Assembly: GCA_021791495.1 (NCBI GenBank) | Contig: JAJYWN010000007.1 | Coordinates: 1-34,875, forward strand | Source: Bacillota bacterium | GTDB taxonomy: Bacteria > Bacillota > Sulfobacillia > JAJYWN01 | Direction: 5' to 3' | DNA: 34,875 nucleotides | Part shown: positions 1 to 17,104 of the stretch, in pieces | Layout of the letters: the number at the start of each line of letters is the position of its first letter | Position numbering within the stretch: the first letter of the stretch is position 1 | Notes under the pieces: model-generated | Databases searched by the model: none | What the model was told of the DNA's origin: nothing | The model's input: only the letters and a program-made list of their open reading frames with translations | Program-made: the position numbers and the translations under genes

Positions 1-16
1 CTGTAGAGGTTCTTAA

Positions 17-310
17 GGGGGCGTGGGGGCCGGGGTCCCGCAGCCGCCAGCGCAGCCGGGCTTCGCCCGGCGGAGCGTTCGGGCGGCGGAGGGAGCGGCC
101 ACCACCAAGTTCGGGGGCGTGGGGGCCGGGGTCCCGCAGCCGCCAGCGCAGCCGGGCTTCGCCCGGCGGAGCGTTCGGGCGGCGGAGGGAGCGGCCACCA
201 CCAAGTTCGGGGGCGTGGGGGCCGGGGTCCTGCAGCCGCCAGCGCAGCCGGGCTTCGCCCGGCGGAGCGTTCGGGCGGCGGAGGGAGCGGCCACCACCAA
301 GTTCGGGGGC
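17..310. repeat. Three 96-bp tandem repeats with internal hairpins
   Basis: Copies run 17-112, 113-208 and 209-304, followed by a 6-base start of a fourth (305-310). They are almost identical; I see one clear substitution, C at 135 becoming T at 231. Each copy contains a perfect 7-bp hairpin with a TTC loop (GCCGGGC/GCCCGGC at 55-71, 151-167, 247-263), nested in further CCGCC/GGCGG complementarity. The unit length is a multiple of three and has no stops in one frame on each strand, so spurious open frames of Pro/Ala/Arg-rich repeats cross it on both strands. The array ends about 65 bp before the hutU start. Its function is not known to me; it could be a transcribed structured leader or an expanded intergenic repeat. 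Confidence 0.93.
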
Positions 311-376
311 AGTCGGCCCCTTGTAATACATGACCAGTTGTGCCCAAGAATAGCTTTGCAAAGGGGGTAGCACCCG

Positions 377-15325: not shown

Positions 15326-17104
15326 ATGGCCCGCCGCAGCCCGCGCTACCTTTTCGACTTCGACGCCCGGGAACTCCCCCGGCAGTACAGTGATTTTCTC
15401 GTTCTCGGGACCGGCATAGCCGGTCTTTTCACTGCTCTCAAGGCCGCCCATCACGGTACCGTCACTGTTCTGACGAAGAAGAAGGTGGCCGACGCCAGCA
15501 CGGAGTACGCCCAGGGCGGCATCGCCGCCGCCATCGGGCGGGGCGACTCCCCGGCCCTTCATTACCAGGACACGCTGGAGGCCGGCCACGGCCTATGCGA
15601 TCCCGAGGCGGTGCGTGTCCTGGTGGACGAAGGCCCCGACTGTGTCCTGGAACTGGCCGCCCTGGGAGCGCACTTCGAGCGCGGTGAGGGCGGCTCCGGT
15701 TTCGCCCTCGCCCGTGAGGGAGCCCACAGCCGCAAGCGCATCCTCCACGCCCACGATGCCACGGGGGCCGAGGTGGAGCGAGCCCTGCTGTCGACGGTTA
15801 GCCGCCAGGACGGCATCCGCGTCCAGGAGGACGTTTTTCTGGTGGACCTTCTGACCGGCGACGACGGGGCCTGTTACGGTGCACTCTGCCTGGACGGGCG
15901 CCGGCAAGAACCCGTGGTCTACCTGGCACGGGCCACCATTCTGGCCACCGGCGGGGCCGGGCAGCTCTATAGGAACACCACCAACCCCTTGATCGCCACT
16001 GGTGACGGGATGGCGGCGGCCTACCGTGCCGGCGCGACCTTGAAAGACATGGAATTCGTTCAGTTCCACCCCACCGCTCTCGATGTGCCCGGTGGCCCTC
16101 CGGGGCAACCGCGTTTCCTCATCAGCGAGGCGGTGCGGGGCGAGGGTGCACTGCTCCTGAATGGGCGGGGCGAGCGCTTCATGCCCCGCTACCATCCCCG
16201 GGCGGAGCTGGCTCCGCGTGACGTGGTTTCCGCCGCCATCTTTCAGGAAACTCGCGCCGCCGGCCAGAGCCAAGGCCAGAGCCAGGGCCAGAGCCAGGGC
16301 CAGGGCCAGGATCAGGGCCAAGGTCAGGGCCAAGGTCAGGGCCAAAACCATGTTTGGCTGGACACCTCGCCCATCGGGCCGTCTTTCGTCAGGCGCTTTC
16401 CCACCATTTACGCGGCCTGCCGGCTGGCCGGGCTGGAGCCTCCGAAGGACCTGCTTCCTGTGGCCCCAGCGGCCCATTACTTCATGGGCGGGGTGGCCAC
16501 CGATACCGAGGGGCGGACCGGATTGCGCTCCCTCTTCGCCTGCGGGGAGGTGGCCTGCACGGGCGTGCACGGCGCCAACCGCTTGGCCAGCAACTCGCTT
16601 TTGGAAGGGCTTGTCTTCGGGCGGCGTATCGCCATGGTCTTGCGGGAGGGGGACGAGGTGCTGGAGGCGGTGGAGTTGCGGCGGTTCAGGCCGCCGGCGC
16701 CGGAGCAGGCTTACCGGCGCCGGGAGGCGGCGGCCGGCGACGGCCGGAGCGCTGTCACGACCGAAGCCGGTCCGGAAGAGATTCGCACCCGCCTCCAACA
16801 GTTGGCCTGGGACCACTTGGGCGTGGTCCGCGGCGGAGAAAGTCTTCAGGCTGTTCTGCAGGAAATAACCACCCTGGAAGCGCAGTTAGAAAGGGGGTCC
16901 GCCGCGTCTGCCACCGCCACCGTTTCCGCATGTGAGGTGGCCAACCTGCTGGCCATCGGCCGGCTGGTTGGCACCGCCGCTCTGGAACGGACGGAGAGCC
17001 GTGGAGCTCAGCGCCGGACCGATTATCCGAATCGGGATGACCGGCACTGGCGGAGGCACATCTTACAGAGGGTGCGGCGGTCTGCCGCCGCCATACGAAG
17101 TTGA
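15326..17104 (+). CDS. nadB: L-aspartate oxidase with a Gly-Gln repeat insertion
   Basis: NadB oxidises L-aspartate to iminoaspartate with FAD, feeding NadA. The 592 residues are longer than usual (about 530-540). The FAD-binding GTGIAG (28-33), STEYAQGGIAAA, HAHDATGAEVERAL, ILATGGAGQLYRNTTNP, FHPTAL, AELAPRDVVSAAI and GVHGANRLASNSLLEGLVFG blocks are all present, so the enzyme should be active. The extra length is largely a 28-residue run of GQSQ/GQGQ units (residues 313-340) just after the APRDVVS catalytic region, before HVWLD. In this family that is where a loop joins the capping domain. The ATG at 15326 follows a G-rich SD at 15314-15320. The C-terminal helical domain (about 470 on) is complete but ends in a basic tail. 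Confidence 0.97.
   Translation: MARRSPRYLFDFDARELPRQYSDFLVLGTGIAGLFTALKAAHHGTVTVLTKKKVADASTEYAQGGIAAAIGRGDSPALHYQDTLEAGHGLCDPEAVRVLVDEGPDCVLELAALGAHFERGEGGSGFALAREGAHSRKRILHAHDATGAEVERALLSTVSRQDGIRVQEDVFLVDLLTGDDGACYGALCLDGRRQEPVVYLARATILATGGAGQLYRNTTNPLIATGDGMAAAYRAGATLKDMEFVQFHPTALDVPGGPPGQPRFLISEAVRGEGALLLNGRGERFMPRYHPRAELAPRDVVSAAIFQETRAAGQSQGQSQGQSQGQGQDQGQGQGQGQGQNHVWLDTSPIGPSFVRRFPTIYAACRLAGLEPPKDLLPVAPAAHYFMGGVATDTEGRTGLRSLFACGEVACTGVHGANRLASNSLLEGLVFGRRIAMVLREGDEVLEAVELRRFRPPAPEQAYRRREAAAGDGRSAVTTEAGPEEIRTRLQQLAWDHLGVVRGGESLQAVLQEITTLEAQLERGSAASATATVSACEVANLLAIGRLVGTAALERTESRGAQRRTDYPNRDDRHWRRHILQRVRRSAAAIRS
16262..16345 (+). repeat. Seven 12-bp tandem repeats coding Gly-Gln in nadB
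   Basis: Seven consecutive codon-aligned 12-bp units (start positions 16262, 16274, 16286, 16298, 16310, 16322, 16334) follow the pattern GGCCAG(A/G)GCCA(A/G) with small changes such as GATCAG and GGTCAG. They code GQSQ three times, GQGQ, DQGQ, then GQGQ twice. The array is in frame, so gain or loss of a unit would not break the gene. Confidence 0.95.

Follow-up and report, generated by a model that had tools for sequence, protein, structure and literature searches.

The window, i.e., the whole stretch of DNA analysed here (34,875 nt), is an entire contig (C31) of a 4.2-Mb draft genome of a Bacillota bacterium, which is assembled in 81 contigs and is 97% complete. On its forward strand, the window opens with the stop codon of hutH (TAG, positions 4–6), followed by a tandem array of a 96-bp unit (17–310) and by hutU, the gene for urocanate hydratase (377–2026; NCBIfam TIGR01228, E 1.4e-296). 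The hutU start at 377, which agrees with that in relatives of the same order, was adopted here, whereas our home-made gene caller had put it at 452. The body of hutH lies on a second contig, C41 (home-made gene call C41:28297-29784, named by NCBIfam). Because the hutH-bearing end of C41 (C41:29779-29893) is identical, base for base, to window positions 1–115 (forward strand), the array can be placed between hutH and hutU, with 66 nt from its end to the hutU start and a hutH–hutU gap of 370 nt in total. The first-pass annotation had put the array before the hut genes, which is correct with respect to hutU, but hutH lies upstream, so the array is a spacer within the hut cluster.

Tandem Repeats Finder delimited the array at 17–310, with a period of 96, 3.1 copies, 99% matches and 0 indels. 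On the forward strand, unit 1 (17–112) and unit 2 (113–208) are identical in sequence, unit 3 (209–304) differs by a single C to T change at position 231, and the terminal GGGGGC (305–310) matches the start of a further unit; the covariance model of this hairpin element, described below, matches at 19–111, 115–207 and 211–303. The exact period and the near identity of the copies, as first annotated, were thus confirmed, and the 7-bp stem with a TTC loop is present at the tip of the unit fold. A recent local amplification fits as well, with units 1 and 2 being identical and with a mean identity of 88.7% among copies within an array (14 pairs, identical rows removed) versus 83.4% between arrays (727 pairs). 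The spacer that follows (311–376, forward strand) is free of the repeat and holds, by eye, a likely ribosome-binding site, AAAGGGGGT, ahead of hutU. No Rfam covariance model (riboswitches, leaders) matched the window at the gathering threshold, and positions 1–600 contained neither a sigma-70-type promoter, as judged by a consensus scan, nor a terminator-like site (a GC hairpin followed by a T run) on either strand. The repeat of the array lacks a U run, and a role as an intrinsic terminator is not expected.

The assembly breaks within the array, and the number of copies between hutH and hutU is therefore uncertain, 'exactly three' being the assembly's version only. Similarly, the contig ends next to infB (C17) and rbfA (C25) have 87 bases in common, within a repeat, and C28 terminates in an array, and copy numbers at these two places are uncertain, too. 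Arrays of this kind break assemblies, so that drafts may give a wrong picture of how many copies there are and of whether an operon is continuous. In all three same-order relatives compared, hutH and hutU are separated by only 56, 19 and 21 nt, without the repeat; a second, less similar HutU match is present in one genome of this comparison (G002). Among 19 hut loci of relatives, hutH lies directly upstream of hutU in seven, with gaps of 19–79 nt, while two have a longer interval (460 and 510 nt), one has hutH downstream, and nine have no hutH match in the stretch. Elsewhere in the window, positions 16262–16344 hold 13.8 copies of a 6-bp repeat, GGCCAG, which encodes a Gln/Gly-rich stretch (GQSQGQ...) within a 592-aa ORF (15326–17104) that by eye resembles L-aspartate oxidase.

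Copies across the genome and in relatives

Confinement of the unit to this site, which the first-pass annotation had named as speaking against its reading, was not observed, as a DNA search detected 54 matches across the genome. A profile search of selected stretches gave 55 matches, including 47 that are nearly full length; they fall into 33 clusters, which correspond to 31 loci after merging two clusters split by contig overlaps. A covariance model built from 39 distinct copies gave 51 matches in the genome at E ≤ 0.001, or about 49 copies if one discounts the terminal matches of C41 and C17, which probably duplicate copies present on the overlapping contig. Each locus carries a run of one to four copies, and full-length tandem neighbours are spaced by 94–129 nt, apart from a single pair at 89. 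In five copies the match to the profile begins only at position 26, 32, 49, 50 or 57, and in a sixth at 14, whereas the 3′ part is missing in two copies, one at a contig end and the other merged with its neighbour. By eye, several copies (in L058, L056, L061, L007, L012, L050 and L055) are followed by an extra duplicate of about 20–26 nt of their own 3′ end (GCGGCCCCCACCAAGTT-like).

For comparison, a background of 20 stretches of 20 kb, which were hand-chosen rather than random and used for gene spacing and the repeat scan only, was considered together with the window, and no copy was seen in them outside 17–310. The G+C content of the background stretches is 63.5%; including the window, 87.5% of the bases are called coding, and co-directional genes flank two thirds of the intergenic bases. 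A match to GPR (NCBIfam) and, by eye, a SASP-like ORF point to a spore former.

Genes were called with a home-made procedure based on codon usage and named by NCBIfam where a family is given. The repeat lies in sense between co-directional genes at 21 of the 31 loci and antisense to co-directional genes at four (rplL/rpoB, rpsE/rpmD, dapA/RNase J and the 3′ end of dnaE, which it overlaps); one further sense locus is on a contig that holds the downstream gene only, two loci are within genes (aspS in sense, gpmI in antisense), two between convergent genes and one between divergent genes, a tally in which single orientation classes may err as several neighbouring genes were called weakly and have no NCBIfam family (e.g., beside C34, C35:46030, C59:30916 and C77). 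Among the 25 co-directional intergenic loci, the ratio of 21 sense to 4 antisense has a binomial p of 0.0009. The loci antisense to their genes number five in total, and their copies do not score significantly lower than those of the 21 sense loci (medians of 94.8 versus 105.0 bits, Mann-Whitney p 0.07; the two truncated-only, two convergent and one divergent loci of the 31 were omitted from the test).

Genes of translation or transcription are touched at 11 of the 31 loci (infB/rbfA, nusA/rnpM, rpsL/rpsG, rpsB/tsf, rpsE/rpmD, rplL/rpoB, tuf, aspS, glyQ, prfB and tilS). Such genes make up about 5% of a genome, and the repeat looks enriched at them when judged against this general figure only. 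Further neighbours include atpA/atpG, ruvA/ruvB, smc, divIVA and a Clp-type chaperone gene. The called starts of atpG, rnpM, rbfA, tsf and rpsG lie 3–52 nt downstream of the repeat.

Two genes carry the repeat within their coding sequence, namely aspS, with two copies in sense and in frame (L011:802-2820; G000 C47:1781-3802), and gpmI, with one antisense copy, also in frame (L020:633-2303; G000 C29:19786-21459). Both reading frames are open across the inserts. The AspRS encoded here has 673 residues, with the two copies at residues ~379–440; in 19 of 20 relatives the match to it is split into two pieces flanking this region, the remaining relative having no match. The match to GpmI is likewise split around residues ~238–280 in 19 of 20 relatives, its two parts falling on separate contigs in G007. 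In some relatives the pieces abut exactly, e.g., in G001 for aspS and in G013 for gpmI, and the insert sites correspond to short loops of variable length, which are alanine/glycine-rich in the AspRS of two same-order relatives. These loops were read directly with a motif that recovered 4 of the 11 loci of relatives in the case of AspRS and 5 of 11 in that of GpmI. At the level of the predicted proteins, the comparison with relatives shows the repeat to be inserted in frame in both genes.

Relatives thus have no repeat at the three sites compared (hutH–hutU, aspS and gpmI). In the 100 nearest genomes, the closest of which belong to the same order and to a different family, the covariance model gave no match under stricter filters with 42 candidates per genome scored, nor did it in 153 other genomes of the class, a set that overlaps with the former and for which 27 candidates per genome were scored; weak relatives of the repeat could be missed at these settings. 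At the DNA level, 10 of 60 relatives gave weak matches (≤76 nt, E 1e-5 to 8.2e-4), which the structure model did not recover and which are regarded as due to chance. An exact 23-nt pattern of the repeat was found in a single record among species representatives, an Oscillospiraceae MAG, and in none of the viral contigs searched. Among the open-access papers found in literature searches, we recognised none describing this repeat.

Folding and covariation of the unit

In most copies, the unit is AGG-GGGYGTGGGGGCCG ... CGGCCMCCACC-AAGTT, with inverted ends, inner stems and a 7-bp tip, and a full copy forms an imperfect hairpin of about 91 nt. As RNA, a single unit is predicted to fold with −59.6 kcal/mol (z −2.84) and its reverse strand with −56.3 kcal/mol (z −3.12); folded as DNA, the single unit has a z of −2.43. 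The three strong stems in a row that had been proposed for the array are predicted when the flanks are included, but the preferred fold of the isolated 294-nt array pairs copy 1 with copy 3 (−186.7 kcal/mol).

RNAalifold predicted 26 pairs, with compensatory changes in 10 of them. The pairs are formed in 97.6% of 1012 cells, compared to a mean of 95.5% in shuffled alignments, and 26 cells show changes on both sides, compared to 4.3 in the shuffles (none of 500 being as high) and 2–4 in slid controls. Further pair types, on the other hand, were as numerous as in the shuffles (17 versus 16.7, with 270 of 500 as high), a control that does not favour the structure, and the structure was derived from the very alignment tested, which favours it. 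The one-sided changes comprise 24 G-U/U-G cells, of which a single pair accounts for 18, and nine A-C/C-A cells, without a clear strand preference. Based on these comparisons, we consider the hairpin to have been maintained, be it as RNA or as folded DNA. The earlier claim of a hairpin is strengthened because its pairs covary.

Affinity and possible role of the repeat

We consider it very probable that the array represents a single site of a non-autonomous family of palindromic repeats, i.e., REP/MITE-like small mobile DNA, so far seen in this genome only. REPs and REPINs are described, in parts of PMC3733652, as palindromes scattered over the genome, often in clusters, whose stems carry alternative but complementary residues; most are located between co-directional or convergent ORFs, and some inside ORFs including those of tRNA synthetases. 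On the basis of these parts, the repeat resembles them in being an interspersed palindrome with a covarying stem that occurs between co-directional genes and also in a tRNA synthetase gene. In contrast, REPs and REPINs measure 20–40 bp and have a GTAG/CGTC tag at one end, whereas the repeat is about 91 nt long and has no conserved end tag. In the same parts of PMC3733652, head-to-tail runs are absent or under-represented for most REP families, unlike in the repeat, and degenerate tags (GYAG) are given for some families. At the only place comparable to the REP tag, which is inside the hairpin, the 39 aligned copies have GCAG (23), GTAG (11) or another tetranucleotide (5). None of the six Y1_Tnp matches in the 97% complete draft was recognised as a RAYT gene, which REPs typically flank. 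A REP with its RAYT was thus rejected on size, tag and RAYT alike.

The repeat agrees with a MITE in being a short dispersed repeat with inverted ends that relatives do not have at the corresponding site. Rickettsia palindromic elements (RPEs) are small palindromic repeats lying in frame within conserved protein genes, according to parts of PMC10969869 and PMC2229807, and the open in-frame insertions in aspS and gpmI are of this type; the difference is that only 2 of the 31 loci are inside a gene body and that the host is a different kind of bacterium, the comparison being one of descriptions, not of sequences. ERIC and NEMIS/Correia repeats, in parts of PMC2229807 and PMC10969869, are palindromic, are co-transcribed with their neighbours and can alter mRNA processing or decay, in an orientation-dependent manner for ERIC. 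The repeat is likewise palindromic and, being known from sequence alone, is set beside them by description. By analogy with ERIC and Correia, its hairpins may change mRNA processing or decay. Placement in tandem, mostly forward and just upstream of gene starts at many loci is shared with the TAACTGA intergenic direct repeats of Beggiatoaceae, as portrayed in parts of PMC4679880, whose unit is a simple 7 nt instead of a 96-nt palindrome. Considering this, 'MITE-like palindromic repeat' is a fair label, and the repeat is not to be filed under RPE or ERIC without sequence homology. Integron attC sites and domain V of group II introns were weighed by eye only and dropped.

If the repeat is small mobile DNA of this kind, a copy would have been inserted between hutH and hutU after the lineage split from the sampled members of the order, and would then have multiplied in place through slippage or unequal recombination. 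In a hutH–hutU message, the two cistrons would be separated by at least one very stable hairpin of the repeat. The repeat may persist because it is tolerated in this orientation, or because it brings a mild benefit as a spacer between the cistrons or as an element of RNA stability, letting the hutH and hutU messages be processed or translated separately. The core of this explanation is ordinary; the orientation bias at many core operons and the in-frame insertions in conserved enzymes are uncommon. A hairpin repeat within highly conserved gene clusters and two enzymes, with the frames open and with a clear preference in orientation, offers a testable case for the tolerance or exploitation of mobile mRNA hairpins.

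An RNA-level function of the repeat that is under selection is a tentative proposition, which we regard as distinctly less probable than not. Read in this way, the repeat would be a functional cis-acting RNA for intercistronic mRNA processing or stability that the cell has put to use in many operons, its sequence and orientation reflecting selection, not insertion history, a reading that is possible though doubtful. The covarying hairpin, the 21:4 sense orientation and the position shortly before the called starts of atpG, rnpM, rbfA, tsf and rpsG are consistent with it, but copies also occur within aspS and gpmI and antisense at five loci, relatives have no match, and the scores of sense copies are not significantly above those of antisense copies.

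A retro-copied or transcription-coupled element appears unlikely. Its insertion would depend on transcription, with sense bias and crowding in core operons as the outcome and with 5′-truncated copies as incomplete events, and this is in line with the sense bias, with the number of loci at translation and transcription genes, and with six 5′-truncated copies versus two without the 3′ part (those at a contig end and merged with a neighbour). A reverse transcriptase domain (PF00078), however, was not found in the genome, on which ground a retro-element acting through a reverse transcriptase was rejected; one truncated copy (C54:111950) was stretched to full length by the structure model, yet with only 40 bits, and the truncations may have arisen through ordinary deletion next to the upstream gene. 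Little weight is likewise given to transcription-dependent insertion, e.g., into the non-template strand while it is single-stranded in highly transcribed operons, followed by use as a generic intercistronic hairpin. If true, it would account together for the sense orientation, for the apparent absence of harmful polarity and for the crowding in operons of translation, transcription and ATP synthase.

A regulatory leader specific to the hut genes and tuning hutU through its copy number, as first proposed, would suit an array ending so close to the hutU start but is highly improbable and largely refuted by the genome-wide distribution, given that the unit occurs at 30 other loci by unrelated genes, that hutH lies directly upstream, and that same-order relatives have hutH–hutU without it.

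Ends of the repeat and candidate enzymes

Mobile DNA, the reading we prefer, raises the matter of ends and enzymes. The left edge is AGG in most of the 24 first copies, and no matching right-hand duplicate indicative of a target-site duplication was seen at them. The left end of the repeat gave 36 matches, of which two are outside any copy (C8:57209-57225 and C36:34597-34613, one mismatch each), and a backward-read control gave one match; the two lone matches may be due to chance or may be remnants of a parent element. A transposase with ends matching the repeat was not found in the 97% complete draft.

The six Y1_Tnp matches are at five places in the genome and appear to be IS200/IS605 copies, next to which TnpB-like genes were seen by eye. 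Four of the places align as one IS200/IS605-like element, and the fifth has, by eye, a TnpB-like neighbour. A truncated repeat is located 2.8 kb from one of the matches. An origin of the repeat from IS605 left ends was rejected, as these gave only 8–12 nt matches; at the four places that can be aligned, the left end does not resemble the repeat. The IS200/IS605-like copies (L031, L032, L033/L036 and L034; G000 C44, C51, C60 and C73) are near contig ends, and some of their tnpA frames contain deletions, shifts of frame or stop codons.
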